Assembly: GCF_033115175.1 (NCBI RefSeq)
Contig: NC_084835.1
Location: 26,741,858-26,805,857 of the forward strand
Source: Lepus europaeus
Lineage: Eukaryota; Chordata; Mammalia; Lagomorpha; Leporidae
Length of the DNA stretch: 64,000 nt
Direction of reading: 5' to 3'
The notes beneath the pieces are model-generated. The model was not told where the DNA came from, did no database searches, and worked only from the letters and a program-made list of their open reading frames with translations. Made by a program: the position numbers and the translations under genes. Position 1 is the stretch's first letter, and every line of letters starts with the position of its first letter. Positions 49,801 to 63,502 of this stretch are shown piece after piece.

Positions 49801-52800
49801 TGGGCAAACTCAGTTTGGATTTAACCAAAGCTTGTAACCCAACCCTAACGGGAAGAAGAGGTGGGTCAGACAGGGCAACGGGAACATAAAGAGCAGCAAG
49901 ATGGTGACAAGAGCAGGGAGTAGTGATTTCACACAGGGAGGGACAGGGCAGGGACGGCTCAGGAAGACACATGTATGTGTTATTTGATGGAATTATTTTA
50001 GAGGACCTTAAAATTTTTCTTCACAATATTAAAACTTTGTAAGATATTATTTTTAAACATTTATTTATTCATTTGAGAGGCAGAGGCAGGGAGAGAGAGA
50101 GGTCTTCCATCTGCTGGTTCACTCCCTAGATGGTTCCAATGGCCAAAGCTGGGCACATCAGAAGCCAGAAACATCTTCCGGGTCTCCCACACGGGTGCAA
50201 GGGCCCAAGCATTTGAGCCATCTTCTACTGCTATCCCAAGCCATAGCAGAGAGCTGGAGTGGAAGTGGAGCAGCTGGGATTTGAACCAGCATCCATATGG
50301 ACTGCTGGCACTGCAGGTGGAGGCTCAACCTACTACGCCACAGTGCTGGCCCATTTAATATTATTGAACCACCAAAAATAACTATGGGGAATGGACGTCT
50401 AGCCTAGTGGTTAGGTTGCCCACATCTCACGTCGGAGAACTTGGGTTCCATTCCTGGCTCTTGCTCCTGACTCCAGCTTCCTTCTGAATGCAGACTGTGG
50501 CTCAAGTAACTGAGTTCCTATGGGAGATCTGGATTGTGTCCCAGGCTCCTGGCTCTCGGCCTGGCACAGCCCCAGCTGCTGCAGCATCTGAAGAGTGAAC
50601 CAGTAGACTAAAGCTCTCTGTCTCTGTTTCTGCTTTTCAAACACACGTTTTGAAATTACAAAATGTCAAATTCATAATGATTTCTGTTAATAAGAAAAAC
50701 AAAACAAATAAGCCTGTAAAACTAACTTAGCCACTAGCAAATTAACTTCTGCATTAACTGCATTTATTTTCCTCTGGACCACTTTGGGACAATCAGCAAG
50801 GTGTTCATCTGGGCTGAGTGAAGTGATGGGATCAGGAGCAAGGGAGGCCCGGTGGGGGTCGCGCGGGGCTCTCACCGGGGGGAAGCACCTCTGCGGAGCA
50901 GCTTCAGCACCACACTGTTTGAGGTAGTCGGCCCAGTCAAAGTCCTGGCTCGGGTAGCCTGGGTGGGGACAAAAGCACAGTGATCACACCACACGCACCT
51001 GCCTGGGGTGCACGCATGACTGGCAGTGCTGCCAACGTGAGGCAACTCCCAGCCAGGGTTACGGCAGATGGCACGCAGGAAGTGAAGCCCTCTCACCAGC
51101 AGTTTGCTGGGGAACCATCTACACACCACCAGCCAACAATGAGACTTGCTGATACACAAAACCATAAAGAGTGACACTTTCCAGGTTAATTTACAAAATA
51201 TTTAAAACTTCAGGCAAGCCCAACTAAGTCATAACTACAAGCCCTGAGGAAAAGGTCAAAGAGTCTATTTTACGGCTGTAAACACCATGCAAGCCAGCAG
51301 CTGCTTCCTAACCAGGGCCTCTGTGTCCCACTTCCCTCTGAAGAGCGCCCCCCCACCCTGCCCTGGCAAGGCCGACACCTGAGATGACCAGGACTGCACC
51401 CTCCGGCTCCGGGTGGACGGCCTCTTCTCACAAGACAGCTCCCGTGCCCCCTGTGCCTGCAAGCCCCACCCGCACGCTGCGGTACAGACCCCCGGTGCTC
51501 ACGAAGGCATGGGTGTCAGAGCACAAGGAGGAACACCTTCTAGAGAAGGGCCGCAGCTTGACGGACAGCTCTGGAACATGCAACTACGCGGAGCCCGGAA
51601 GCATCAGACGTGCTGGGGCATCTGTCAGGGATGCGCCCCCCCAGGGAACAGCTCAAAGCAGTAGCAGTGCACACCCGGAGGGGGGATGATGTGGACCCCG
51701 TTCTTCAGACCCCACTGCACAGGAAAGATGCCGGGACTGTTGACGTGGCACACGAACGACCGCCGCACGTGCTCCTCCGGCCGCAAGTCGTCCATCTCCA
51801 CCAGAAAGTACTTGTCGTCGAACACCTGCGCGTGAGCAGACAAGACACATGGCTTCACATGCACGTATGCACACTCTGCCTGGAGCAAACACGCCACCAG
51901 AGTTCACAGTCACTGGGCGTTATCACGGCCGCTCAACTCAACGTTTGCGTGAGGAACGATTTTATTTTATGTATTTATTTTTAAAGATTTATTTTATTGT
52001 TTTCTCAGGCAGAGTTACAGAGACAGAAAGAAAGAGAAATCCTCCCTTGCTGGTTCACTCCTCAAATAGCTGCAATGGCCCAGGGCTGGGCTAGGGTGAA
52101 GCCAGGAGCCTGAACTCCATCCAGATCTCCCACGTGGATGGAAGGGGCGCAGGGACGTGGGCCATCTTCTGCTGCTTTTCCCAGGCGCCTTAGCAGGGAG
52201 CTGCATGCGAAGTGGAGCTGCTGGGACTTGAACCAGCACTCATATGGGAAGCCAGTGTCCCAGACAGCAGCTTAACCCACTGTACCACAATGCCAGCCCG
52301 AGGCATTATTTTCATTCCATGCTTTTCATCATGGGCATTTGGCACAGCAGCTTCTGTAGCTGCTTGGGATGCCACACCCCATGTGGGAGTGCCTGACTCA
52401 AAGCACGGCCACTCTGCTTTTGATCCAGCTTCCTGCTCGTGTGCAACCAGTGGATGCTGACTCAACTACCTGCGTCCCTGCCACATGGGAGACCCACATG
52501 GGAGTTCCAAACTCCTGGCTAATCTTATCAACTCCATTTCACAGATTCAAACCCAAGGAGCTCCAAAGAGAATTTAGTTTAAGCTTAGTAAAGAGTCAAC
52601 TATACCAGTTTAAGGGTACTTCAACACATTCAAGCAAAATGGGTTTAAAAGGTAAGTTTAGGGACCAGGGTTGCAGTGCAGCAGGTTAAGCCCTGGCCTG
52701 CAATGCTGGTGTCACATATCGGAGTGACAGTTTGAGTTCCCATTCCTCTGCTTCCAATTCAGCTTCCTACTAATGTGCCTGGGAAGGCAGAGGAAAAATG

Positions 52801-55800
52801 GCCCAAGTATCCTTGTGAGAGACCAGCATGGAGTCTCTGGCTCCTGGATTCAGTTTGGATCAGCCCCAGCTCTTGTAGCCATTTGAGGTGTGAACCAGTA
52901 GGTGGAGGATCTCACATGTGTGCTCTCACTCTCACTCTCGCGTTTCTTGTCACTCTGCCTTTCAAATAAATAAATCTTTTTTTTAAAAAAACTTTTGGTG
53001 AAAAAAAATTGAGATGCATACATACATTTTCTCATAATAAGCATTTTCCATGAACTGGCTAAAGATCCTGCATATGTATAATTTCAAGATTTTAAAAATA
53101 ATTAATTAATTAAAATTATTTCAGGGACAGAGAGAAAGAGAGTTCCCACCCACTGGTTTAACACCCAGATACTTTCAACAGCCAGGACTAGGCCAAGCCA
53201 CAGACAGACACTTGGATCTCCCACCTGAGTGGCAGGGACTCAACCACCTGAGCCATCACTTGATCCTCCCAGGGTGCACACCTGCAGGACGCCGAGACTC
53301 AAACCCAGGCACTCTGACAGGATGCAGGCAGCCCTACCAGCAGCTTAACCACCAGGCCAAACGCCCACCCCTGAGGTCAACAATTTTTAGAACCAAAATA
53401 AACTTATATTTTAATTCTATTTTTCATGAACTTGAAAGATGCTACTATATTAGTTTTTCATGTCCTAACCTAGTTTTTCTTCCTCAAAAAGAAGAGTTTA
53501 TAAGACTGATGCTATGGCACAGCAGGTTAAACCGTCACCTGCAATGCCAGTATCCCATACAGGTGCCAGTTTGAGTCCCAGCTGCTCTACTTCCTATCCA
53601 GCTCCCAGCTCATGCACCTGGGAAAGCAGCGAAAGACAACCCAAGTGTTTGGGACCCTGCCACCCATGTGAGAGACTCAGATGGAGCTCCAAGCTCCTGG
53701 CTTCAGCCTGACTCAGCCCTGGCTGTTGCTGCCATGAACCAGCAGATGGAAGATATATCTATCTCCCCCCCTCCCACACATCCCCCCTACCCCGCTTCCT
53801 CTCCCTCCTTCTCTTTTCCTCTCTCGTAATCTCCCACTCTCTCGCTATAACTCTACCTTTCAAAGAGTGAAATAAATCTTTAAAAAGAAGAAGAAGAGTT
53901 TATGAACCTCCCACAGTTCTCCAGACTCCAGATGGGGCCTTCAGACCCGACCTGCAGGGTCAGATGCCCTCTGCTCAGAGGATAATCTCCCACGACAAGG
54001 AAAACTTAAATCTCAACAGGTCACATGATGCAGCATTCAACTGACTATTTCTGTAGTCTTGTTCCATTCTGGGTTCCACTTTCAGGCAATGGGTTTCTCT
54101 CCCTTGGCTGTAGTTAATGATTAACTGTACCCTGCTAACCTGTTCAGTTCTTGTAGTTACTCAGAACAAGAGTCTTATTTTTGTCAGTCTCCCAAAGACT
54201 GGACTGCACAGCTGGAGCCCCCTACTTCCAGATCTTATGGCACTAACTGCCCCCTCCCCATGCACCCCCTCATTCCATCAACCCTGCACCCAGCTGGACA
54301 CCAACAACACTCCGTTCATCACAGACTCCATGGTCCCTCTAGAGAGGTGGCACATGTCTCTCTCATTTGTTAAGAAGCCACCTGGGATGTCCTCACTCCA
54401 GACCAGAGTGCCTGGGTTAGAGTCCCAGCTCTGCTCCCAATTCCTGCTTCCTGGAAAGCAGCTGGGGTGGCTCAGGTTCTTGGGTGATTGCCACCCACAT
54501 AGGAGACTTGAACGGAGTTCCTGGCACCTGCTTCAGCCTGTCCTACTCCTGGCTGTTGCAGGCATTTGGGAAGTGAACCAGGGGATGGGGTGCATGTCTG
54601 TCTTCCTTTCAAATAAAGTAAATAAAACTTTTTGAAACTCTCTCTAGTCATAAACATTAGGCCTTCCCTAAAGCATGTACGCCCACCTTTCTCGTGCCCA
54701 GGTCATGGTCTTGGGTTGGCTGGGACTAGCAGCTCTGAGGAAGGAATGGGTCACAGAGAACTGGACAATACAAACATAAAGCGTGCGCAGAGATACGCCA
54801 GGCTCACAACAACGCACCGGACTCAGAGCTGGAGGTCGAAACTCTACCAATTTTCCAAACCAGTCACCCAGACAGGGATCCTACCAACATTGTGGCTGCA
54901 TTTTACCTTAACAACGGTTGCAGGAGAGATCCCAAAAGGAGACCAGGGGTCCACAGCTTCCAATTTCATATTTACAGAGAATGTATGAACATCAATAATT
55001 GGTTTGTCCTGAATACAAACACCAAAAGAGAATAAAAATAATTTTTGTATCACTTTTATACTCACACACGGCTGAGTCCTACTCTAAGTACTCAAAGCAC
55101 TGGCGCTGCCCGGCAGCTGGCAAGCCCTGTAACTCCTCCCCCTGGAAGAACGGGACAGCGAATGTGGTCCTGCTATTCTGCACTCGGAACAGGGGACATC
55201 TGGAGAAAAAACAAACTGATTTTACCTCAACTTATTTTATAGTAGGACCACAAGAACGGAAAAGAAAGATCCAGACAGCTTTGAGAGAAGTGGGGAAGAA
55301 AGCCTGGCGCTGTTCACAGAAGGCCAGGGCGGCCGCGACTCTGGCCCCGCACCCTCCCAACTCCACGGGGCTCCATGTGCACCCCACGTCCCTACAGTGC
55401 TCTACTCAGCCGCTAAGACCCATCCTCACATGCTTCCACTGTCTACCTTAAACAGGTACGACGGCAGTGGCTCTTCTTCCTCCTCTTTCACTTTGGCCAA
55501 AATATCTCGCCATTCATCTTCATTTTTCAGATGTCTGATGGCTTCGGTGAGACAAGAAGACAAACTTCAGATGAACAGAAACCTGAGCACCCCCGTAAGC
55601 ATATTCCCCACATTCAGCTATTTCCATGGGGACCAGGACAGACTCGAGCCTTCCACTTCCGCCACATTCCCCCTCAGAGCTCGGCCTGTCCTGCTCAGGG
55701 CCCGGACAGTCAAGCTGTGCAGAAACACCGACAAGAGGTTCCCAGGACGGCCATAGGACGCCCACCGTCCCCACACGCCATGTGGGCACGTCACCATGAA

Positions 55801-58800
55801 CACAAACTCCTTTACACAGAGACTCACTTCAGTGTTCCTGGTATTTCTTTCCAATCAGCACCTGGCTGTGAACCCAAGTTGCCACACATACCTATCCGAT
55901 GCTGCCCAGAAGATTCTGACTTTATTTTGGTAAGAGGTAGCAGAGGTTGGGCCAAAATCTTTGAGGTATATCAATACGTGTGGGAAATTATAGAAGCAAT
56001 AAAATCAAAAGGAAAACAGGAGCTTAATTTAACAACTCCACATACACTTTTTGCAATAAATTATGTGAACGAACAAAAGCTTTCAGAATACAGAGCACAA
56101 TGCACTTCTCAGCCCCACAGATGTTAATAATGATACAGTGCTGCTGTACCAGCTACAAGAAAAGCATTACTCTTCACCTGATGGGGGCTGCAGCTCATAG
56201 CCCTGCTGAGCGGCCCAGCCAACATGATGAAGGAAGGGGTCCAGGTAATACAGCCAATGCTCAAAATCGCCAGAACCCTCCAGCCCCTCGTAGCGCAGCC
56301 TCAGCCTGCCCCCAATGTTCTCTGCCACAGTCACGATCCAGGTGCTGAGAGAGTCGCGGAAAGCCTGGCACTCCAGCCGGGACCCGGGGGCGATGAGATC
56401 TAGCGGGTTCCTGCCATTACGGAGCTGGGGTCAAACAGCAAAATGGAGAATTAAGATAAACATAATATTTTTTTAAAGTCAAGTCCTAAATGATCTCAAA
56501 CCAGCCTAGTTCTAAATGACCTCAAACTAACCTATCCAAAGCCAATGACATCGTTATATTCCTAAAGCTGTACCTACAAAATTTGTATTCATTAAATAAA
56601 AGCTTTCTAAAAACTAATAATAATTTTTTTTTTTTTCCACAGGCAGAGTGGACAGTGAGAGAGAGAGACAGAGAGAAAGGTCTTCCTTTTTCCGTTGGTT
56701 CACCCCCCAATGGCCGCTGCAGCCAGTGCACCGCGCTGATCCGAAGCCAGGAGCCTCTCCTGGTCTCCCATGGGGTGCAGGGCCCAAGCACTTGGGCCAT
56801 CCTCCACTGTACTCCCGGGCCATAGCAGAGAGCTGGACTGGAAGAGGAGCAACCAGGACAGAATCCGGCACCCCGATTGGGACTAGAACCCGGTGTGCCG
56901 CTGCCGCAGGCGGAGGATTAGTCTGTTGAGCTATGGCGGTGCTGGCCAAAAACTAATAATAATTTTAAAAAGCCAGTGACACTGAATTATCTCCTATTAT
57001 ACAATCTTCTCATAGCATTATTTATAAGTGACATTAAGATATTTATCTTACAGAAAATCTACCTTTACCTAACGCAATAAAATTATTCTAACAGCTTTTT
57101 ATCACCAGGACTATTTTAGCTCCATTTAGTAAGAAACTTTAAAATATCATCATTACTTTATCTCTGATTATAAAAGTAAATAAAATCAACCATAAAGAAA
57201 AAAATCAAACATGACAAAAGTCAGAGTTCCCCACATCCGCCGTGTAACAAAGAATCACAAAAACACGGAGCAGGCTCTCCCGCCAAGTCTACCTGCTCCA
57301 CCAGTCTGTCCCTCTGCTTCCCGCCCCTGTTTTTTTTGAAACTGAGAACGCTGTATACTGTTTTTCACTTGATACATCATCATTATCATGGCTCTCTTTC
57401 TATTACAGTCGATATAAATGCTCCTTGTCTTATAAACTGTTTCATGGTATCCTAGTGGAAATGGGAAATAATTTATCCACCTATCTACTGCTAGCATTTC
57501 AGTTTTTCTGTATTTTTTTTGTTTGTTTGTTTTTTACTCATTTCACAACAATGTTCTAATGAGCACAGTAAGAACTTCAGATTACACTGAAGGAAACTTC
57601 GTACTCTCACTGTCCGGGTAGATATTAAAAACCACAACACAGAATGAAAAAACAGTCACTCCACAGTTACCACTTAATCGTTTCTCATTACTCAACCTGA
57701 CGTGTTTTCCAGCAGAAGCTGTGCTGCGACACAGTCTCAGACGAAAAAAGAACATGAGACAAGTGGAGGCACGCGTCCCTGCTGAAGGCACCACCGCAGG
57801 GGTGCTGCAGAGCGGAGCGTCCAGTAACTGGTTCCGAGATGGTCCATCTATACTATCCTGAGTGTGGGGCATGTTCCAGGCCCCAGGGCCCAGCCAGGCC
57901 TTATGAAAAGAGATGGGCCGGCACTGTGGCGGAGCCGGTAAAGCCGCCACCTGCAGTGCCAGCATCCCATATGGGCGCTGGTTCGAGTCTTGGCTGCTCT
58001 ACTTTCAATCCAGCTCTCTGCTACAGCCTGGGAAGGCAGTACAAGATGGCCCAAGTCCTTGGGCCCCTGAACCCGCGTGGGAGACCCAGAAGAAGCTCCA
58101 GTTCCTGGCTCCGGATCAGCACAGCTCCGGCCGTTGCGGCCAACTGGGGAGTGAACCAGCGGATGGAAGACCTCTCTCTCTGCCTCTCCTTGTCTCTCTG
58201 TGTAACTCTTTCATTTAAATAATAAAACAAAATTAAAAGAAAAAGAAAAAATAAAGAACAGCTTGAAACAGACTGATTACCAACCACCAGTCAATACTTA
58301 CAAAGGGATGTGAATGGATCACAGAATTAAATGTAAGAGCTAAAACCATGAAGCCCTTAGAAGAAAATATAAGAGCTACTCCATCTTACCCTGGGTTAAG
58401 CAAAGCCTTCTTTTATATAATATCAAAAACACAAGCAACAAAAGAAAAAAAAAGATAAATTGAACTACATAAAAATAAAAAAAAAATCATGCTACAAATG
58501 ATAAAAAAGACAACCCATAGAATGAGAAGAAATATTTGCAAATCATAAATCTCATCTGTAATTATATCCAGAAAGCATAAATAACTCTTTTTTTGGGGGG
58601 GGGGTATCGTTTTAATTTAATTGGAAGATTCTCGAGAAAACCCCTGTGGATGAACTACAGCTCCCATTGGTCCATTTCTTGCTCTGACTTCATAAGGCAC
58701 CACTGTTAGGAAAGTTGTATTATTACACAGTCCCTGGCTGGGCTGTGATTGGTCCATTTCTTGCTCTGATCTCACAAGGCGCCATTCTGTGAGGTGAGCC

Positions 58801-61800
58801 CCCAAAAAGTATATATAGCCGCTGCAGGGGCCTAGATTTTTGTCCGCCTTACCCAGAGAGCACTCTTTTTGTGATCTGTGTAACTAGGACCGCAACTAGC
58901 CCTTTGCGCTCATTGCTGTTGCTTGTGCTTTTTCTTGGTTGTTTGTTTCTGGGTCTATTTGGTTTTTGCTTTTTCCCCATTTTGGTTAGTTTGTTGTTTT
59001 CCTCCTCGTTGTTGTTTTGCCCATTTGGCCTTTTTTTTGCAGTTTTCTTTATTTTGGCTTCCCCCACTCTAGTCAGCTAGCACACTCAGAGTATCAGCGT
59101 TCGAGGATTTAGTGGCTTTTCCTCTTTGTTGTTTTCTGCTTTATTGAGATAGAATTGCGGCTTTGCCTCTAGAGTAGTGAGAGTAGTTGGTGCTGTGTCT
59201 TAGTCAGCTGGGTAGTCAGTCCCCCGTGGTCCCTTTGTGTTGTAGGTAGTGCAGTGAGGGTCCGTGATTAGCTAGTGTGTGTCAAGCGAGTTAGGGAGTC
59301 GAGAGAGCGTAGTTAGGTGACGGGCATCATGGAAGGCCCCTTGGACTTCCATCCTCCTCTGGACGGGTTCCGCTTCGTGGACGTGCTCAGCCGGGGCGGC
59401 TTCGGCCTGGTGAAGCTGGCCCGGCACCTGGCGTCCGGCAAATACGTGGCCGTAAAGATCCTCCTGCAAGACGCCTCTCCCAGCAGCCCGCTGTCCGCGC
59501 ATGGGGAAGCGGCCATCCTGAGGAGCCTGCGGCACAAGAACATCGTGCGGCTGCTGGCGGAGCGGCACACCAGGACGCACCTGTTCCTGGTCATGGAGCT
59601 GGCGACCAAGGGCTCGCTGGAGAGCTACGTGCTTGAGCAGGGCGGCCTGGTCGAGGCCGAGGCCAGGACCCTGTTCGGCCAGGCGCTGGCCGCCGTGAGC
59701 TACTGCCATGGCCAGCGCGTGGCACACCGGGACCTCAAGCTGGGCAACCTGCTGCTGGATGCCCACCTGAACCTCAAGCTGGCGGACTTCGGCCTGAGCC
59801 TGCGGCTGGAGCAGGGCACGCTGGTAAGGGGCTTCTGGGGGACCCCCGAGTACTGCGCCCCCGAGCTTTTCCTCGGGGAGGCCTACGACCCCTTTAAGGC
59901 CGACCTGTGGAGCCTGGGGGTGGTGCTGTTTGCCATGCTGGCGGCCAAGCTGCCCTTCCGCGGCAAGGACACGGAGGAGCTGCAGGACACGGTGCTGTGT
60001 GGCTGCTACATGCTGCCGTGTGCCGTCAGCCTGGCCCTGCAGGAGCTGCTGGCCTGGCTGCTCACTGTCGACGCCTCGGGGAGGCCCAGTGCGGAGGATG
60101 CCAGGACCCACTGGTGGTTCGGCCCCGGCCGAGAAGCCGCCCAGGAGGACGAGGAGGACACTGTCACCCTGCTGCAGCCCCTGGGTGTTCCCCGGGACTC
60201 GGAGGCCAAGGAGTACCTGGTGGGCCTCGGCCTGCTGCCAGGCACGGGGACCGAGGGGACGCCAGGCCCTCAGCCCTGCGGCCCCGAGGCCTTGCCCGAG
60301 TCCTTACAGGGCGGGGAGCAGCACCCCATAGAGAAGGACCCCTTGTCTCTGGTGTCAGTGTCCTGTGACAGCATGTCCGTCGACGTTTCCTCCGCACGAA
60401 GCGACTCCTCCGAGGCCTCCAGTGAGTCTTGCCCTCCCCCCTGCCTCGGGGCCTCCAGCAGCTGAGCCCAAGGCCCCCTGAGGTGACCCCACTCTTGACT
60501 CTCTCCTACCAGGCCAGCCACAGCAGCAGTGGAACCCGGCTTCCAGCGCCGCCCCCGACTCCTCCCAGGCCTCCAGTGAGTTGCCCTCTCCCCACATCCC
60601 CTGCCACTTCGGGGCCTCCAGGAGCTGAGCCCAAGGTCCCCTGAGGTGACCCACACTTGACTCTCTCCTACCAGGCCAGCCACAGCAGCAGTGGAGCCCT
60701 GCTCCCAGCGCAGCCCCCGACTCCTTCCAGGCCTCCAGTGAGTCTTGCCTTCTCCTCACATCCCCTGCCACTTTGGGGCCTACAGGAGCTGAGCCCAAGG
60801 TCCCCTGAGGTGACCCACACTTGACTCTCTCCTACTAGGCCAGCCACAGCAGCAGTGGAGCCCTGCTCCCAGCGCAGCCCCCGACTCCTCCCAGGCCTCC
60901 AGTGAGTTGCCCTCTCCCCACATCCCCTGCCACTTTGGGGCCTATAGGAGCTGAACCCAAGGCCCCCTGAGGTGACCCACTCTTGACTCTCTCATACCAG
61001 GCCAGCCTCAGCAGCAGTGGAGTCCTGCTCCCAGCGCCACCCCTCAGCCAGCCTCCAAAGCGTCGCCCTCCAGCCCCAGTACCGGGAGCCGCATGGACCT
61101 CACAGAGCCAGAAGCCGCCGCAGCAGCCCATGAGCCCGAGGACTCTGGGACCGCAGCCACCGCTGACAGCACAGACACCAAGGCCAGCGCCCAGGGCAAG
61201 AGGCAGGGCCGGCGCGGGGTCGGCAGGAGGATCCTCCGGTTCCTGCTGAGGGCGTGCTGCATCCTGCCGTCCCGAGGGAGCAGCCCTGGCCGCTGCTGCA
61301 GAGTGGTCCCCAAGTAGCCTCGCTCAGCCCCAGCCACCAGGAGCAATCCGCGGGCTGAGCCCACTGAAAGTTTTTCTATTCTAAGCATTTGCAAATGCTT
61401 CCCATGAATAAACTTCACCATGTGTGCATGGCTTTGGTCCCGTGTGATGTTTGGGTCCCTGTGTGCACCTTGGGGAGGTGATGGAGGTGACGGGCGGGTG
61501 GCTCTCACAGAAAGACAAACGCTGGGCGATCTCCCTGTGTGGGGATCACAGAAGGGGTGACATCATAGAAGTAGAGCCTAGAGTGACGGATCCCTGAGCC
61601 TGGGCTGGGGGAGGAGGGAGGGAGAGTCAGAGCTTCCATAGTGGCACAGGCACACGGGGGTTGGGGTCTGATGAAAAGTTGACGAACCAGGAGAAGAAGA
61701 AAATGGATCTGAAGCGCTGATGCCTCCTGGACCCTGGGGTGAAGCTGAACTTGACGCTCTAGCCTGCCAGGGCTTTCCGGGGACAAGCCCATGAACTCCT

Positions 61801-61848
61801 TTTCTTTCTTTCTTTTTTTTTTATTTTTTGACAGGCAGAGTGGACAGT

Positions 61849-61880
<32 letters not shown>

Positions 61881-63502
61881 TCTTCCTTTGCCGTTGGTTC
61901 ACCCTCTAATGGCCGCCGCGCTGTTCCGATGGCAGGAGCCAGGTGCTTCTCCTGGTCTCCCATGGGGTGCAGAGCCCAAACACTTGGGCCATCCTCCACT
62001 GCACTCCCTGGCCACAGCAGAGAGCTGGCCTGGAAGAGGGGCAACCGGGACAGGATCGGTGCCCCGACCGGGACTAGAACCGGTGTGCCGGCGCCGCAAG
62101 GCGGAGGATTAGCCTGTTGAGCCACGGCACCGGCCCATGAACTCCTTTTCATTCTCTAAACCTGCTTGCGGGGAGCTTGTCTTATTTCCATCCAGAATGC
62201 TGAAACTCTTCCTGTCTTTGTAGCTGGGAAGTTTCATTTTCCAGGCCTGTATCGAAAAGGGCGTCGTGCATTGGCAAGTGCGTCTAATTGGTCGTTCCTG
62301 GGTTCGTGAGGGAACGCCCGGGCTCTCCGGCATTGTCTACAGGGCCTCCAGGTTGAGGCGTGTGCTGATGTGGTGTCTGCTTCCTGCTAACGTTGCTTGC
62401 CTGTGTGGCCATTGCTGGATTTTTGTGGGAGGTCGTGGATTTGAACTGAGCATCAAGCCAGTCACTGGGCTTAGGTCAGCATAACTAACTCTTAAAATTC
62501 AAATAAAAAGACAGTCCAACTTCACAATGGCAAAAGCAGGACCGGCACTGGGGCCCTCTTTATGCAGGCATCTCCTATCAGAGTGCCAGTCTACAGCTTC
62601 CGAGCCAGCTCCCTATTCATACGCCTGAGAAAACACTGGATGATGGCCCAAGGATCTGCCAAATGGGAGACTTAGATGGAGCTCCTGGCTCCAGCCTGGC
62701 ACAACCCTGGCCACTTCAGCCATCTGGGGAATGAAGCAGCTGGTGGAAGACTGGTCAATCTCCATGTCACTCTGCCTTTCCAGTAGATAATAAACCTTTT
62801 TAAAAAACAGGTAAAAGTATGTCTCCCAAAAATATACATGAGTGGCCAAAAAGCACATAAAAAGATGCCCACCATCATTAGCCGTTAGGAAAATTCAAAT
62901 CAGAATGAGGCATCACTTTGCACCCACTAGGACAAGCACTGGCAAGTATGCAGAGAAATGGGAACATTCATAGACCACATCTCATGTACACCACAAAGTA
63001 TGCTACTGATATGCGAGAAAGTCACAAGCAATATACAGAAATGTTGAAACCAGTAAATCCATTTCACAAAACCAAAACGTCCATATTCACTAACGAGCTC
63101 AAAAGCTGCACAAACCTCACAGGACTGCTGTGAGCAGGGCAGGTCCCACATCTTCCGAGCAAAAGCTCTCGAGTCAGCCGGGCTGAGCTCAGTTCTAGAG
63201 GGAAAGCCCCTAATGGCCTCAATTTCCAAACGGAAAACTGTCAGGCACTGAGCAAGCCCTCGGTCTGTAAGCACACAGGGCAAGTCCACCCCTCCCCAGT
63301 GCCTGTGCCTGCATCTCCGACAATAATGCTCATGTGCTTCCGCGTGGGCAATCAGCAGGCGCCCTCACACCCCCGGGGGAGCACACGGGCGTCCACAGGG
63401 AAACACTACTCACGCCGTCCAGCAGAGGTGCAGGAGGGCTGCGCGCCCCCGCCAGGGTCTGCCGCAGGAACTCGGCCCAGTCCGACACTTTGTCCCTGAT
63501 GC
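27862..63502 (-). CDS. SFMBT1: SFMBT1, four-MBT-domain Polycomb-related protein (17 coding exons, 5' end missing)
   Basis: SFMBT1 is a nuclear chromatin protein that uses MBT repeats to contact histone tails and takes part in transcriptional repression with Polycomb-type and LSD1/CoREST-type complexes. Seventeen exons with AG acceptors and GT donors join without any frame conflict into 744 codons plus TGA. Placed on the 866-residue human protein as I remember it, this is residues 123-866 with no gap, so only the N-terminus and first MBT repeat lie off the right edge. The order is MBT2, MBT3, MBT4, linker, SLED domain (about 530-640), a basic nuclear-localisation-like stretch (KRRKRRKN), an acidic Ser-rich region, and the SAM domain (about 790-860). 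The largest intron here holds an antisense kinase gene. No frameshift or internal stop is seen, so the gene looks functional. Confidence 0.95.
28691..28790. repeat. 50-bp tandem duplication across the SAM-exon 5' splice site
   Basis: Units 28,691-28,740 and 28,741-28,790 align without gaps at about 43 of 50 positions. The right unit contains the true donor (exon end 28,784). The left unit carries a second CCAG|GTGAGCC exactly 50 nt into the intron. Confidence 0.9.
28784..28912 (-). CDS. SFMBT1: SFMBT1 coding exon, N-terminal half of SAM domain
   Basis: Encodes 43 residues, [20 protein letters not shown] then [23 protein letters not shown] (about residues 778-820). WSVADVV and the following helix are the typical SAM start. 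Phase 0 on both sides. The donor is CCAG|GTGAGC, duplicated 50 nt downstream. Confidence 0.95.
29120..29470 (+). mobile_element. Lagomorph C-type SINE
   Basis: Forward copy: GGGCAGGCATTGCAGCACAG head, (TCTG)n-like CTGTCTGTCTGTCTGTC run and AAATAAATAAAC tail. The target duplication TTAAAAGGCAGTTT occurs on both sides. Confidence 0.9.
29744..29989 (-). CDS. SFMBT1: SFMBT1 coding exon, acidic Ser/Glu-rich linker
   Basis: Encodes 82 residues (about 696-777), starting [18 protein letters not shown] and ending [10 protein letters not shown]. The stretch is low-complexity and probably disordered. Several SP and acidic-flanked Ser sites look like casein-kinase-2 or proline-directed phosphorylation sites. 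A basic insert (RQARRRAPR) interrupts the acidity. Phase 0 on both sides. Confidence 0.93.
30245..30423 (-). CDS. SFMBT1: SFMBT1 coding exon, basic region after SLED
   Basis: Encodes [18 protein letters not shown] and then [17 protein letters not shown] (about residues 636-695). The IGRPPGG core flanked by lysine and arginine resembles an AT-hook, and the second cluster looks like a nuclear localisation signal; both are inferences. It enters in phase 1 and ends SPQ in phase 0 at AG|GTATGG. Confidence 0.94.
30873..31220 (-). mobile_element. Lagomorph C-type SINE, full length
   Basis: Reversed copy with about 35 T, then GACAGGCAGAGTGGACAG, ending CACAGCGCTGGCCCA. CCTCCAGGTT flanks it on both sides as a target duplication in an older L1 copy. 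Confidence 0.93.
31280..31938 (-). mobile_element. Lagomorph C-type SINE split by another SINE
   Basis: Reversed copy whose left part runs to GAGCAGCTGGAG (about 31,534) and resumes at CAGCTGGGACTTGAATGC (about 31,853), ending CACAACACCAGCCCC. CAGCTGG is repeated at the junctions as a short target duplication. Confidence 0.85.
31535..31852 (+). mobile_element. Lagomorph C-type SINE nested in an older SINE
   Basis: Forward copy: GGGGCAGTGTTGTGGTAC head, AAGTGCTTGGGCCCCTGCCC middle, (TC)n and A-rich tail. It interrupts the reversed SINE around it and so is younger. Confidence 0.88.
32299..32633 (-). mobile_element. Lagomorph C-type SINE with clear target duplication
   Basis: Reversed full-length copy, poly(T) then GACAGGCAGAGTGGACAGTG, ending GCAGTGCCAGCC. 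AGTCTGTTATTC on both sides (ending about 32,299 and starting about 32,634) is the target-site duplication within L1. Confidence 0.95.
32845..33115 (-). mobile_element. Lagomorph C-type SINE, diverged
   Basis: Reversed copy: TATTTATTTGAAAGGCAGAG, CCAAGGCTGGGCCAGGCC, GGGACTTGAACCCAGGC. The head has decayed. Confidence 0.8.
33600..33925 (-). mobile_element. Lagomorph C-type SINE
   Basis: Reversed copy: TTACTTATTTGAAAGGCAGAG at the left and CCACCACAATGCCCGGCCC at the right. It interrupts a minus-strand L1 copy whose sequence continues on both sides. Confidence 0.88.
34076..34525. other. SFMBT1 intron, nothing recognised
   Basis: A/T-rich intron sequence. I see no exon, RNA gene or repeat that I can name. 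Confidence 0.5.
34526..34690. mobile_element. MER5-like hAT fragment
   Basis: CTGGAAATGCAGATGCTCAG and later CAACAAGGTCCTCCGGTGAT follow the pattern of MER5-type elements (nonautonomous hAT-Charlie). Confidence 0.5.
34691..35456. other. SFMBT1 intron, nothing recognised
   Basis: Mixed-composition intron sequence. An open frame at 34,783-35,208 resembles no known protein and has no splice context. Confidence 0.5.
35457..35870 (+). mobile_element. Solo LTR of an endogenous retrovirus (class II type) with 6-bp target duplication
   Basis: The LTR is 35,463-35,864 (402 bp) and begins TGTGGGC and ends CCAGCA, the TG...CA ends required of an LTR. TATTAT at 35,457-35,462 and 35,865-35,870 is a perfect 6-bp target duplication. 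A CCAAT-type GATTGG lies at about 35,676, followed by CTGCGCATG and a TATA-like CTTATAA at 35,711. The 5' text TTACAATATGGCGCC resembles the start of rodent intracisternal-A-particle LTRs. No internal retroviral sequence is present, so this is a solo LTR left by recombination. No clear AATAAA is seen. Confidence 0.8.
35911..36198 (+). mobile_element. Lagomorph C-type SINE
   Basis: Forward copy: GGCCAGCATTGTGGCTCAG head and an (AAAT)n tail. AAGAATCCTTTTAG is repeated on both sides as target duplication. It lies 40 bp from the solo LTR. Confidence 0.92.
36225..36515 (+). mobile_element. C-type SINE, strongly diverged
   Basis: Forward copy recognisable from GTCTGCATTCAAGTCCTGG, CTTCCTGCTGGGTGCACC and TCTCTCTCGCTCTC before an A-rich end. 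The head is poorly preserved, so it is probably an older subfamily. Confidence 0.7.
36553..36728 (-). CDS. SFMBT1: SFMBT1 coding exon, SLED domain (C-terminal part)
   Basis: Encodes [13 protein letters not shown], then [19 protein letters not shown] and [12 protein letters not shown] (about residues 577-635). Six conserved cysteines are visible in the Scm-like embedded domain, a DNA-binding module. Phase 2 in, phase 1 out, donor A|GTGAGT. Confidence 0.95.
37388..37497 (-). CDS. SFMBT1: SFMBT1 coding exon, SLED domain (middle)
   Basis: Encodes [18 protein letters not shown] then [18 protein letters not shown] (about residues 541-577). It enters in phase 0 and ends after two bases of a Lys codon completed by the next exon. 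Confidence 0.95.
37498..38817. other. SFMBT1 intron, nothing recognised
   Basis: Unique-looking intron without recognised repeats apart from a short TATATATA at about 38,610. Confidence 0.5.
38818..38957 (-). CDS. SFMBT1: SFMBT1 coding exon, SLED domain (start)
   Basis: Encodes [18 protein letters not shown] then [20 protein letters not shown] and CVLVLRE (about residues 494-540). This is the conserved opening of the SLED domain with its CC and GPG landmarks. Phase 1 in, phase 0 out. Confidence 0.96.
39086..39402 (+). mobile_element. Lagomorph C-type SINE
   Basis: Forward copy: GGGGCTGGCATTGTGGCAC head. AAAAATCAGGAGTT occurs immediately before and after it as target duplication. Confidence 0.94.
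39651..39715 (-). CDS. SFMBT1: SFMBT1 coding exon, inter-domain linker
   Basis: A 65-nt exon encoding [19 protein letters not shown] then ADS (about residues 472-494) between MBT4 and SLED. Phase 2 in (CA|A), phase 1 out at AG|GTATGG. Confidence 0.92.
40514..40797 (+). mobile_element. Lagomorph C-type SINE, diverged
   Basis: Forward copy: GTGGCAGGCACAGTGGCAG head, CAGGAGACCCAGGTGGCG middle, CTCTCAAATAAATG tail. Confidence 0.82.
40835..41135 (-). mobile_element. Lagomorph C-type SINE with (GA)n
   Basis: Reversed copy beginning with a GA run of about 40 bp, then GGAGCTCCCACCTCC, CAGCAGGGGCTGGGC, ending near CAGGGCGAACACCTGGCC. Confidence 0.82.
41834..41876 (-). CDS. SFMBT1: SFMBT1 43-nt coding microexon
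   Basis: Encodes [15 protein letters not shown] (about residues 458-472), a basic link after MBT4. Phase 1 in and phase 2 out fit both neighbours exactly. The acceptor is TTCTTACAG and the donor is A|GTAAGT, which compensates for the small size. Confidence 0.92.
42610..43015 (+). mobile_element. L1 ORF2 3' fragment
   Basis: Forward text: AATGAATCAAAGACCTAATTG, GAAAATCTTCATGGCATTGG, TTGGACCCCAGCAAAATC, AAAACTTTTGTGCATTAAAAG. This is the familiar C-terminal ORF2 region of L1, with deletions and an inserted poly(A). Confidence 0.8.
43017..43312 (+). mobile_element. Lagomorph C-type SINE
   Basis: Forward copy: GTGCCAGAGCTGTGGCGTAG head and an (AAAT)n tail. It adjoins the L1 fragment on the left and ends 18 bp from an SFMBT1 exon. 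Confidence 0.88.
43330..43443 (-). CDS. SFMBT1: SFMBT1 coding exon, end of MBT4
   Basis: Encodes [19 protein letters not shown], then [18 protein letters not shown] (about residues 420-458). FPLGWC is the signature end of an MBT repeat. Phase 1 in, phase 1 out. Confidence 0.95.
43477..43806 (+). mobile_element. Lagomorph C-type SINE, full length and young-looking
   Basis: Forward copy: GGCCGGCGCCATGGCTCAG head and an (AAAAC)n tail. AAAACAATCACTTCT duplicates on both sides. It lies 34 bp upstream of the acceptor of the MBT4 exon on the gene's strand. Confidence 0.95.
44529..44842 (+). mobile_element. Lagomorph C-type SINE
   Basis: Forward copy: GGGGCCAGCACTGTGCCATAA head and TTTCAAATAAATAAATAAATC tail. 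Confidence 0.92.
44846..45162 (+). mobile_element. Lagomorph C-type SINE, stacked behind the previous copy
   Basis: Forward copy: GGGGCCGGCACTGTGACTTAG head directly after the tail of the preceding element, ending in AAATAAATAAATCTTTAAA. Confidence 0.92.
45162..45212. repeat. (GT)n(AT)n microsatellite
   Basis: GTGTGTGTGTGTATGTATAT, then ATAT and ACACATACAT follow the SINE tail. The alternating purine-pyrimidine tract could adopt Z-DNA or a cruciform. Confidence 0.9.
45448..45574 (-). CDS. SFMBT1: SFMBT1 coding exon, start of MBT4
   Basis: Encodes [19 protein letters not shown] then [20 protein letters not shown] (about residues 378-420). MKLEAV followed by VCVATI is the MBT core; the aromatic cage residues come with the next exon. 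Phase 0 in, phase 1 out. Confidence 0.96.
45575..45955. other. SFMBT1 intron, nothing recognised
   Basis: Unique-looking intron sequence upstream (gene sense) of the MBT4 start exon. No feature is supported. Confidence 0.5.
45967..46286 (+). mobile_element. Lagomorph C-type SINE
   Basis: Forward copy: GGGGCTGCTGCTGTGGCGTAG head, (TC)n and AAATAAATA tail. AAGATAGGTTTTAG precedes it and recurs at about 46,658, after the next SINE. Confidence 0.92.
46287..46650 (+). mobile_element. C-type SINE stacked in the tail of the previous copy
   Basis: Forward copy: GGCACCGTGGCTCACTAGG head follows the previous tail with no gap. It ends in a long AAATAAATAAAATAAAATAA tail, so it inserted into the A tail of the first SINE. 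Confidence 0.92.
46671..47006 (+). mobile_element. Third stacked C-type SINE
   Basis: Forward copy: GGAGGTCTGGTGCTGTGGTA head just after the recurring AAGATAGGTTTTAG, with TTTTTTTTTCTCTCTCTG and a short A tail. Confidence 0.9.
47112..47448 (-). mobile_element. Lagomorph C-type SINE
   Basis: Reversed copy: TTTAAAGATTTATGTATTTA, GAAAGAGTTACAGAGAG, ending CGCCACAATGCTGGCCCC. Confidence 0.92.
47449..48150. other. SFMBT1 intron, short internal repeats only
   Basis: At 47,515-47,590 TTTCTTACAAGAAATTTCAT and ATAAGAAATCTAATTTCTTG form short imperfect inverted repeats. The rest shows no recognised feature. Confidence 0.5.
48513..48710 (+). mobile_element. C-type SINE, 5'-truncated
   Basis: Forward copy starting in the middle (GGCAGTGGTGGTGGCTCAAG), with CCCAGCCCAGCCCAGCCCAG and a CTCAAATAAACAAAC tail. 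Confidence 0.75.
49236..49538 (+). mobile_element. Lagomorph C-type SINE
   Basis: Forward copy: GGGGCCAATGCTGCAGCGC head, internal deletion near GATGCACTGCACCC, and a tail followed by (AC)n at 49,540-49,556. Confidence 0.9.
50042..50355 (-). mobile_element. Lagomorph C-type SINE
   Basis: Reversed copy: AAACATTTATTTATTCATTT, GAGGCAGAGGCAGGGAGAG, ending CGCCACAGTGCTGGCCCA. Confidence 0.92.
50388..50650 (+). mobile_element. C-type SINE, older subfamily
   Basis: Forward copy with an unusual head (GGACGTCTAGCCTAGTGGTT) and tail CTTTTCAAACACACG. The head resembles a tRNA A-box more closely than the common copies do. Confidence 0.7.
50876..50958 (-). CDS. SFMBT1: SFMBT1 coding exon, MBT3-MBT4 junction
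   Basis: Encodes [20 protein letters not shown] then PQRCFPP (about residues 350-377). FDWADYL opens the MBT4 arm. Phase 1 in, phase 0 out. Confidence 0.95.
51675..51825 (-). CDS. SFMBT1: SFMBT1 coding exon, MBT3 core
   Basis: Encodes [38 protein letters not shown] and [12 protein letters not shown] (about residues 300-350). The C-H-x-x-S-P-G-I-F-P-V-x-W pattern is the end of an MBT repeat. Phase 0 in, phase 1 out. Confidence 0.96.
51975..52302 (-). mobile_element. Lagomorph C-type SINE
   Basis: Reversed copy: TTTAAAGATTTATTTTATTG, CAGGCAGAGTTACAGAGAC, ending CACAATGCCAGCCCG. Confidence 0.92.
52335..52525 (+). mobile_element. C-type SINE fragment, older
   Basis: Forward partial copy: GGCACAGCAGCTTCTGTAGC head and CACATGGGAGACCCACATGG middle. 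It stops before the pyrimidine block. Confidence 0.6.
52660..52988 (+). mobile_element. Lagomorph C-type SINE
   Basis: Forward copy: GGGACCAGGGTTGCAGTGC head, CTCTCACTCTCACTCTCGCG block and TTTCAAATAAATAAATC tail. Confidence 0.9.
53095..53375 (-). mobile_element. C-type SINE, diverged
   Basis: Reversed copy: AATTAATTAATTAAAATTATTT, CAGGGACAGAGAGAAAGAG, CTCAAACCCAGGCACTCTG. The head is weak. Confidence 0.75.
53500..53886 (+). mobile_element. Lagomorph C-type SINE with expanded pyrimidine tract
   Basis: Forward copy: GACTGATGCTATGGCACAGC head. The pyrimidine block at 53,755-53,850 is about 100 nt, roughly three times the usual length. Confidence 0.88.
54365..54630 (+). mobile_element. C-type SINE, 5'-diverged
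   Basis: Forward partial copy recognised from GTGCCTGGGTTAGAGTCCC, GTTCCTGGCACCTGCTTC and CCTTTCAAATAAAGTAAAT. Confidence 0.7.
54907..55008 (-). CDS. SFMBT1: SFMBT1 coding exon, MBT3 start
   Basis: Encodes [20 protein letters not shown] then [14 protein letters not shown] (about residues 266-299). FxxxMKLEAVD followed by an ATV strand is the opening of an MBT core. Phase 0 on both sides. Confidence 0.96.
55447..55541 (-). CDS. SFMBT1: SFMBT1 coding exon, MBT2-MBT3 linker
   Basis: Encodes [20 protein letters not shown] then [12 protein letters not shown] (about residues 234-265). The W and following helix begin the MBT3 arm after a Glu run. Phase 1 in, phase 0 out. Confidence 0.95.
56178..56424 (-). 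CDS. SFMBT1: SFMBT1 coding exon, MBT2 core
   Basis: Encodes [20 protein letters not shown], then [20 protein letters not shown] and [19 protein letters not shown] (about residues 152-233). The F-x-x-W-L-Y-Y-L-D-P and HHVGWA patterns contain the aromatic cage side of MBT2. Phase 0 in, phase 1 out. Confidence 0.96.
56628..56947 (-). mobile_element. Lagomorph C-type SINE with long target duplication
   Basis: Reversed copy: poly(T), CACAGGCAGAGTGGACAG, ending GCGGTGCTGGCC. The 19-bp AAAAACTAATAATAATTTT at 56,609-56,627 and 56,948-56,966 is a perfect target duplication. Confidence 0.96.
57911..58250 (+). mobile_element. Lagomorph C-type SINE, full length
   Basis: Forward copy: GGGCCGGCACTGTGGCGGAG head, GCATCCCATATGGGCGC and AATAATAAAACAAAATTAAA tail. 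Confidence 0.93.
58305..58585 (+). mobile_element. L1 ORF2 3' fragment
   Basis: Forward text: AGAGCTAAAACCATGAAGCC, AGAAGAAAATATAAGAGC, AACACAAGCAACAAAAGAAA, ACAACCCATAGAATGAGAAG. This is the L1 ORF2 C-terminal region, mutated, ending just before the kinase promoter. Confidence 0.8.
58630..58845 (+). promoter_or_regulatory. Kinase gene promoter: duplicated CCAAT module and TATA box
   Basis: A near-perfect direct repeat, ATTGGTCCATTTCTTGCTCT, occurs at about 58,667 and again at about 58,749. Each copy carries a reversed CCAAT box (ATTGG) and is followed by a CACAAGGCGCCA or CATAAGGCACCA element. About 60 bp after the second copy lies TATATATA at 58,810-58,817, so transcription should begin near 58,840. 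This layout is compact and TATA-driven, unlike the CpG island of STIMATE. It could be derived from a retroviral LTR, but I could not find LTR ends or a target duplication. Confidence 0.65.
58840..59316 (+). other. Kinase gene 5' UTR (T/G-rich)
   Basis: About 475 nt separate the TATA box from the start codon. The stretch 58,920-59,060 is very rich in T on the plus strand (TTTTTCTTGGTTGTTTGTTT, TTTGGTTTTTGCTTTTTCCC), unlike the GC-rich coding part. No donor/acceptor pair is obvious, so it may be a single leader exon. Confidence 0.5.
59317..60465 (+). CDS. Kinase, unspliced reading frame (382 residues)
   Basis: Without splicing the frame runs from the same ATG to the TGA at 60,463-60,465. The last 14 residues then come from intron 1 and form a Ser/Cys/Pro-rich end ([14 protein letters not shown]). 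This form keeps the whole kinase domain and lacks the repeats and basic tail. It would be the product if the first donor (A|GTGAGT at 60,422) is not used, and is what an intronless gene prediction would report. Either product is possible. The intact kinase domain, high GC of the coding part and absence of any frameshift argue against a pseudogene. Confidence 0.7.
   Translation: MTGIMEGPLDFHPPLDGFRFVDVLSRGGFGLVKLARHLASGKYVAVKILLQDASPSSPLSAHGEAAILRSLRHKNIVRLLAERHTRTHLFLVMELATKGSLESYVLEQGGLVEAEARTLFGQALAAVSYCHGQRVAHRDLKLGNLLLDAHLNLKLADFGLSLRLEQGTLVRGFWGTPEYCAPELFLGEAYDPFKADLWSLGVVLFAMLAAKLPFRGKDTEELQDTVLCGCYMLPCAVSLALQELLAWLLTVDASGRPSAEDARTHWWFGPGREAAQEDEEDTVTLLQPLGVPRDSEAKEYLVGLGLLPGTGTEGTPGPQPCGPEALPESLQGGEQHPIEKDPLSLVSVSCDSMSVDVSSARSDSSEASSESCPPPCLGASSS
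59317..61317 (+). CDS. Sperm-motility-kinase-like Ser/Thr protein kinase, spliced form (5 exons, 536 residues)
   Basis: Joining 59,317-60,421, 60,513-60,575, 60,675-60,737, 60,839-60,901 and 61,001-61,317 gives one open frame of 1,611 nt. A TAG five codons upstream in frame and a good start context (GGCATCATGG) fix the start. The kinase domain spans about residues 14-264. The ATP lysine is K43 (VAVK), the helix-C glutamate E60, the catalytic loop HRDLKLGN at 133-140, DFG 153-155, GTPEYCAPE 171-179, and DLWSLGV 192-198. The first glycine of the nucleotide loop is Ser21 (SRGGFGLV). The layout resembles AMPK-related SMOK kinases of rodents, which act in sperm. A region at about 285-300 ([16 protein letters not shown]) may be a degenerate UBA. 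The C-terminus is basic with several cysteines. It lies antisense inside an SFMBT1 intron. Kinase identity is certain; family and splicing are inferred. Confidence 0.72.
60513..60575 (+). CDS. Kinase repeat exon 1 (63 nt)
   Basis: Phase 1 on both sides. It encodes a 21-residue unit beginning [12 protein letters not shown] and ending PDSSQAS. Addition or skipping leaves the frame intact. Confidence 0.65.
60675..60737 (+). CDS. Kinase repeat exon 2 (63 nt)
   Basis: Phase 1 on both sides. It encodes [12 protein letters not shown] then PDSFQAS and differs from unit 1 at three residues or so. Confidence 0.65.
60839..60901 (+). CDS. Kinase repeat exon 3 (63 nt)
   Basis: Phase 1 on both sides. It encodes [12 protein letters not shown] then PDSSQAS. 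It is nearly identical to unit 2 (Ser in place of Phe), which points to recent duplication. Confidence 0.65.
61001..61317 (+). CDS. Kinase terminal exon (basic, Cys-rich tail)
   Basis: It starts like the repeat exons ([13 protein letters not shown]) and continues with an acidic/Ala-rich part ([19 protein letters not shown]) and a strongly basic end ([16 protein letters not shown], then RACCILPS and GRCCRVVPK), stop TAG at 61,315. The frame matches the repeat exons without adjustment and stays open for 105 codons, good evidence that this is real coding sequence. The basic-plus-cysteine end could be palmitoylated or otherwise membrane-directed (inference). Confidence 0.7.
61407..61412 (+). terminator. 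Kinase gene poly(A) signal
   Basis: AATAAA lies 90 nt after the stop of the spliced form and is followed within 15-40 nt by TGTGTGCATGG and CCGTGTGATGTTTGG, a typical U/G-rich downstream element. It serves the spliced form naturally and lies about 940 nt after the stop of the unspliced form. Confidence 0.8.
61805..62133 (-). mobile_element. Lagomorph C-type SINE, full length
   Basis: Reversed copy: T-rich start, GACAGGCAGAGTGGACAGTG, ending CACGGCACCGG. The 17-bp CCCATGAACTCCTTTTC at 61,788-61,804 and 62,134-62,150 is the target duplication. Confidence 0.96.
62538..62812 (+). mobile_element. C-type SINE, diverged
   Basis: Forward copy: GGACCGGCACTGGGGCCC head, GGAGACTTAGATGGAGCTCC middle, and a CTTTCCAGTAGATAATAAACC tail. 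Confidence 0.8.
62815..63075 (+). mobile_element. L1 ORF2 3' fragment
   Basis: Forward text: GAGTGGCCAAAAAGCACATA, AAAAGATGCCCACCATCATT, CACTTTGCACCCACTAGGAC, TATGCAGAGAAATGGGAAC. This is the familiar end of L1 ORF2. Confidence 0.8.
63414..63502 (-). CDS. SFMBT1: SFMBT1 coding exon, MBT1-MBT2 junction (most 5' exon seen)
   Basis: Encodes [18 protein letters not shown] then [11 protein letters not shown] (about residues 123-151). DWAEFL opens the arm of MBT2. It enters after one base of a Gly codon from an upstream exon outside the window and ends in phase 0 at GGC|GTGAGT. Confidence 0.95.

Follow-up and report, generated by a model that had tools for sequence, protein, structure and literature searches.

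A European hare kinase gene with a predicted tail of repeated 63-nt exons, most likely housed in a LINE-1-made copy of antisense RNA

Retrogenes are expected to lose their introns and promoters and mostly die, and the standard processed retrogenes made by LINE-1 (L1) carry target-site duplications and an A-tail and have lost the introns of the template RNA. Dispersed copies that bear introns are normally classed as DNA duplications. Among the systems closest to the locus described here, PMCHL1 arose in primates through retroposition of an antisense PMCH mRNA, which is reported as one event, later remodelled and judged to be non-coding (PMC2621205). Minisatellites, in turn, are reported to alter how exons and introns are laid out in human paralogues, morpheus/NPIP among them; the repeats, lying inside exons or at the borders between exon and intron, differ from one paralogue to another, mostly in frame (PMC2812944).

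In the window, the whole stretch of 64,000 nt of the European hare genome that was analysed, a kinase gene with a tail that splicing is predicted to assemble from repeated 63-nt exons lies, very probably, in a copy that L1 made of an antisense RNA (Table 1). The gene has relatives dispersed through the genome that likewise bear introns, and the family most likely goes back to antisense RNA. As in PMCHL1, RNA antisense to the gene would have been the retroposed template, and a spliced and polyadenylated antisense template, the mark of the PMCHL1 kind, can be read from the sequence of the copies alone. In contrast to PMCHL1, which was judged to be non-coding, the single hare genome contains a number of separate insertions, six of them with clear target-site duplications, and the copies keep coding frames, introns and a predicted promoter. 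The copies share with standard L1 retrogenes the target-site duplications, the A-tail and the loss of the introns of the template RNA, and differ from them in that the template is antisense, so that the gene's own introns stay. A conventional processed retrogene made from sense mRNA was considered and rejected, as the gene's own introns are present in the window and in all 10 other dispersed copies. The repeats resemble those reported for morpheus/NPIP and differ in that the hare unit of 162 bp comprises an entire exon and an entire intron and that the array is carried by retrocopies; in-frame change of copy number, the mark of a coding minisatellite, is found between hare copies. In the open-licence literature we found no report of the kinase family, of repeated antisense retroposition beyond PMCHL1, or of antisense retroposition combined with an exon-intron minisatellite, and the parts consulted of three further papers (PMC7692494, PMC3412815, PMC3032696) concern other matters. 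Antisense retroposition and structure-changing minisatellites are each known separately.

Table 1. Features of the kinase locus in the window and, in coordinates of the joined reference locus L016+L029, introns of the putative antisense RNA
Feature	Position	Strand	Remarks
Left target-site duplication AGCATAAATAACTCTT	58574..58589	.	within old L1 copy; 15/16 identical to 62478-62493
T-run then G-run, left edge	58588..58604	-	reads as A-run at 3' end of antisense RNA
Retro-inserted unit, probable antisense-RNA copy	58602..62476	-	holds whole + strand kinase gene
TATA-like box, predicted kinase promoter inside unit	58808..58820	+	TATATATAG core identical in 11/11 dispersed copies
Exon 1, coding part	59329..60421	+	protein kinase domain and linker
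Intron 1	60422..60512	+	91 nt, GTGAGT...CAG
Internal exon 1	60513..60575	+	63 nt, phase 1
Intron 2	60576..60674	+	99 nt
Internal exon 2	60675..60737	+	63 nt, phase 1
Intron 3	60738..60838	+	101 nt
Internal exon 3	60839..60901	+	63 nt, phase 1
Intron 4	60902..61000	+	99 nt
Last exon, coding part	61001..61317	+	317 nt, conserved C-terminus
AATAAA of kinase gene	61407..61412	+	
SINE, inserted in kinase unit after its arrival	~61810-62135		own target duplication ATGAACTCCTTTTC
Antisense-RNA segment	62247..62352	-	92% match to 11304-11406 of L016+L029
Antisense-RNA segment nearer its 5' end	62350..62476	-	98% match to 11591-11717 of L016+L029
Right target-site duplication AGCATAACTAACTCTT	62478..62493	.	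followed by AAAATTC
Antisense intron	10496>7397 (L016+L029)	-	spliced in L010
Antisense intron	10496>7652 (L016+L029)	-	spliced in L018
Antisense intron	7497>7420 (L016+L029)	-	spliced in L018
Antisense intron, 103 nt	7312>7208 (L016+L029)	-	spliced in L009, L010, L012, L014, L017, L018; kept in L011, L013
Antisense intron	2920>2306 (L016+L029)	-	spliced in L018; kept in L017

The first exon encodes a protein kinase domain (PF00069, 3.9e-57) that is nearest to MARK1-4 in the PDB; unlike the MARK kinases, the predicted product has no UBA or KA1 match in Pfam at E up to 1. SMOK are the sperm motility kinases of rodents, and among the best 120 of 1,221 matches obtained when the predicted product was searched against proteins, which come from rabbit, European hare and pika, some rabbit relatives carry the name sperm motility kinase. 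The tail sets the family apart from both MARK and SMOK, as a search with residues 265-532 returned at least 29 proteins, and 29 of 29 among the matches listed were from rabbit or hare. It is possible, though we consider it unlikely, that the gene model is right and the window copy itself is a recent relic, silent or catalytically weak. The Gly-loop (59386-59406) reads LSRGGFG, with the first glycine replaced in the window alone and kept in the 18 other parsed copies, and the window's own protein is absent from the best 120 of 1,221 matches. Against such a relic, the window copy retains the full frame, the splice sites and the TATA-like box, which lies about 519 nt from the ATG. Outside CpG columns the upstream segment of the copies diverges by 1.7% and the downstream segment by 5.2%, and the low upstream value is consistent with constraint on a promoter without being proof of it. 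The predicted promoter also contains two similar stretches of ~47 bp (58666-58710 and 58748-58794), and the two match each other in the 10 other dispersed copies as well.

The preliminary description had read this segment as an exon-intron array that stays in phase and adds 21-residue repeats to a kinase, on the strength of regularly spaced GTGAGT donors (154-164 bp apart), four acceptors sharing identical branch-point-like text, three internal phase-1 segments of 63 bp and a last segment open to a stop ahead of AATAAA. Every element was recovered: the donors begin at 60422, 60576, 60738 and 60902 (spacing 154, 162 and 164), the acceptor AGs end at 60512, 60674, 60838 and 61000, TTGACTCTCTC is present in 4/4 acceptors, the three internal segments have the stated length and phase, and 89 nt separate the stop codon from the AATAAA. 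Exon 1, the three 63-nt exons, the four introns and the last exon join into an open frame of 532 codons, or 1599 nt with the stop. If left unspliced, the frame ends at a TGA at 60463-60465, after 378 codons. The repeating unit of this minisatellite, 162 bp long, combines one in-phase exon with one intron (TRF: period 162, 3.6 copies, 93% matches), so that each unit gained or lost would lengthen or shorten the kinase tail by 21 residues.

A search for the same array in paralogues, proposed at the outset, gave at least 49 matches in the hare genome; 40 of 44 candidates were scored and 20 loci (the L labels) analysed, with the matches on C17 and C38 and two on C11 lying outside the analysed set. 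The parser required splice-site motifs and introns of 80-112 nt, leaving exon length free, and yielded 19 gene copies, comprising the window and hare loci, one of which holds an inverted pair counted as two; L021, L026 and L028 were dropped because the start was absent by the pattern used. All 55 internal exons in these copies measure 63 nt, with introns of 89-102 nt, and since the parser did not impose exon length this argues against chance. The frame is open to the same conserved C-terminus in 18 of the 19 copies, ending in L018 shortly past the conserved C-terminal motif; the broken one, L019, was counted for exons and frames and excluded from pN/pS. The number of internal exons runs from one (L027) to five (L010), bearing out between copies the expectation that length would change without frameshift. 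L010 and L014 look like one insertion that was copied locally afterwards: their first exons differ by 0.8%, yet they have five and four internal exons, and the first unit, single in L010, is present in L014 as three near-identical copies. The first array units are duplicated in L012, L014 and L016, and a pika protein, P0029, lacks internal repeats and resembles the C-terminus of the last exon (46% over 76 columns, E 3e-10, in a single comparison), a structure as expected for a two-exon ancestor. Both observations agree with the earlier proposal that the array grew by duplication of whole units. Between two rabbit proteins, P0013 and P0018 (named MARK2 isoform X1 and X3), length differs by 42 residues, or two repeats.

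Eleven of the parsed copies (the window and L009-L018) form a dispersed set on C3, C6, C11, C18, C20 and C23. The ten others match the window at 94-97% identity over the longest match with introns in place, and in all 11 the spliced frame is open. Indels among them are multiples of three in 6 of 6 cases in coding sequence, as opposed to 3 of 22 in flanking sequence and intron 1. Pooled pN/pS across the dispersed copies is 0.28 in the kinase domain, 0.58 in the linker, 0.74 in the last exon and 0.275 in the internal exons, from pairs that are non-independent and that include change in the source before copying. Between exon 1 of the window and six copies on C9, dN/dS is 0.72-1.20, a range in which constraint is barely visible. 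The tree of copies is star-like; support is weak at 6 of its 13 inner branches, and identity between the window and L016 is 98%. Such a tree would fit repeated copying from one source. At L022 (C9:101.23 Mb) two gene copies face each other ~2.4 kb apart with equal match statistics in both arms, which reflects either a recent palindrome or an assembly effect.

That the protein stops at the TGA ending at 60465, leaving the array as a minisatellite in the 3' UTR, is improbable. In its favour, the unspliced frame has 378 codons in the window and in 7 of the 10 other dispersed copies, and the hare RefSeq protein P0019 is the unspliced 378-aa reading of the sister copy L013. The fixed exon length across all 55 exons, the lack of any frame-breaking indel in the last exon of the 11 dispersed copies, the low pN/pS of the internal exons and the last-exon peptide held in common with pika speak against it. 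Three other hare RefSeq proteins (P0009, P0012 and P0015) equal the spliced predictions for L025, L024 and L023 at 100% and full length, while P0003, P0010, P0017 and P0021 fit L014, L017, L015 and L022 only with gaps; with P0019 unspliced and these four gapped, the RefSeq annotation of the family is not unanimous. In rabbit, the records P0022 and P0023 are on one contig and, compared with P0001, have the repeat tail largely in another frame; a second long open frame can cross the array because each exon is a multiple of three.

With its edges, the kinase insertion spans about 58574-62493 and interrupts an old L1 copy at the sequence TCTT/AA, which may be an L1-endonuclease-like target. When the flanks are joined, their alignment to L034 and L035 continues well beyond the junction, and that to L033 extends 20 nt beyond it (five L1 copies tested). 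At the left edge, the first two T of the T-run overlap the duplication and the last three G of the G-run overlap the unit. The target reads TTT/AA in L018 and is degenerate in the other copies. Nine insertions were tested for duplications, leaving out L014, which shares the insertion of L010, and the parent-like L016. Exact duplications measure 13 bp in L009, 17 in L010, 11 in L011, 15 in L013, 14 in L017 and 18 in L018, against a maximum of 11 bp, reached twice, in 72 control pairs of left and right windows from different loci. The window scores only 7 in this test, as its duplication needs one mismatch. When one mismatch is allowed in tight windows, with the right edges of the window and L010 set at the duplication, the score is 12 for the window and 13-18 for the five remaining clear cases, and the controls reach 11 once in 72 pairs. 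Clear duplications are thus present in six of the nine insertions (the window, L009, L010, L013, L017 and L018), and the same six have a T-run on the 5' side of the kinase, at the left edge. The duplication of L011 is weak, being at control level. At the edges of L012 and L015 none was found; a 17-bp one-mismatch pair at L012 lies ~90 and 210 nt outside the edges and was not counted, and the edges of L015 show no T-run either. The edges differ from one scattered copy to the next, and common ends of the transposon kind were not found among those read. One mobile element with shared boundaries at 58602 and 61809 was rejected on wider alignment, in which 61809 belongs to the later SINE and 58602 is a truncation private to the window.

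The template was most likely a spliced, polyadenylated antisense RNA that the L1 machinery reverse transcribed. L018 starts with T14, followed by a segment that reads, in reverse complement, as an RNA 3' end carrying AATAAA. Two stretches found in L016 and the C9 relatives are missing from L018; on the minus strand they start with GT and end with AG. The parent-like locus L016 (C20:26.33 Mb) was joined with the neighbouring stretch L029, and further segments of the same RNA occur to the right in L016+L029, in order and apart. Scanning of junctions showed canonical minus-strand introns of L016+L029 spliced in at least one copy at five of nine candidates, and such introns are gone from six copies (L009, L010, L012, L014, L017 and L018). 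By eye, the junction near 2131 is also canonical, its acceptor falling beyond the stretch covered by the scan. Two scanned junctions had no match, the donor after 11304 being mutated in L016 but used by copies; L016 may therefore be the closest relative to survive and not the parent. The window's join 11591>11406 lacks GT-AG ends and has CCT microhomology. The A-run at the RNA 3' end of L009, L010 and L013 is also genomic in the C9 relatives and L016, which makes internal priming and a true poly(A) end indistinguishable there. Antisense exon 1a sits in CpG-rich DNA (L029 601-1500; GC 0.72-0.76, CpG o/e 0.70-0.99). The kinase introns would have been kept in the copies because they are not introns on the antisense strand.

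Spread by segmental duplication of DNA, under which the keeping of introns would be trivial, is highly improbable for the family as a whole. L010 and L014 do resemble a local duplicate of one insertion, the left side of L016 is colinear with the C9 cluster and further matches cluster on C9, C17 and C38. At L015 the retroposition hallmarks are absent, so that an origin of this copy by antisense retroposition is unsupported. The private edges, duplications, T-runs and missing antisense introns of the scattered copies nevertheless make DNA duplication unlikely for most of them, and at L009, L010, L017 and L018 it is contradicted by duplications combined with absent antisense introns. Retroposition of an unspliced sense pre-mRNA, in which the introns would likewise stay, has scarcely any probability, as the A-tail is on the wrong side, no A-run was seen at the right edges read, and the removed introns, being GT-AG on the minus strand, already contradict it.

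Under antisense retroposition, a likely non-coding RNA would start at L016, in the CpG-rich DNA beyond the 3' end of the kinase, and traverse the kinase gene in antisense orientation; its own GT-AG introns would be spliced out and a poly(A) tail added. The L1 endonuclease and reverse transcriptase, to which the edges and target sites point, would prime at the A-rich 3' terminus of the RNA or at A-runs within it, and the cDNA would be inserted at new genomic sites. The kinase introns, which read CT-AC on the antisense RNA, would stay in, and each copy would land with a TATA-like promoter, introns, the repeat array and a poly(A) signal. We infer that every copy has an active sense promoter and is spliced and translated as the model predicts.

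On the minus strand of the interval 50840-63500, two MBT-repeat exons (1.8e-12 and 2.5e-19) lie to the left of the kinase, in a gene that is presumably SFMBT-like. If a possible further minus-strand exon near 63400-63500, seen by eye alone, belongs with them, the kinase would sit inside an intron and face the other way.

A broader proposal, which we hold with equal conviction and doubt, is that a long antisense RNA may act as a gene shuttle, with L1 retroposition seeding intron-bearing, self-promoted paralogues that would work immediately, after which the whole-exon minisatellite would tune the length of the tail. The hare family points to an L1 route that would have repeatedly moved an entire gene together with its introns, its predicted promoter and its poly(A) signal. 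The compact minisatellite of exon plus intron ties the length of the array to the length of the protein, and the kinase family offers a direct test of the share of antisense transcription in gene birth.
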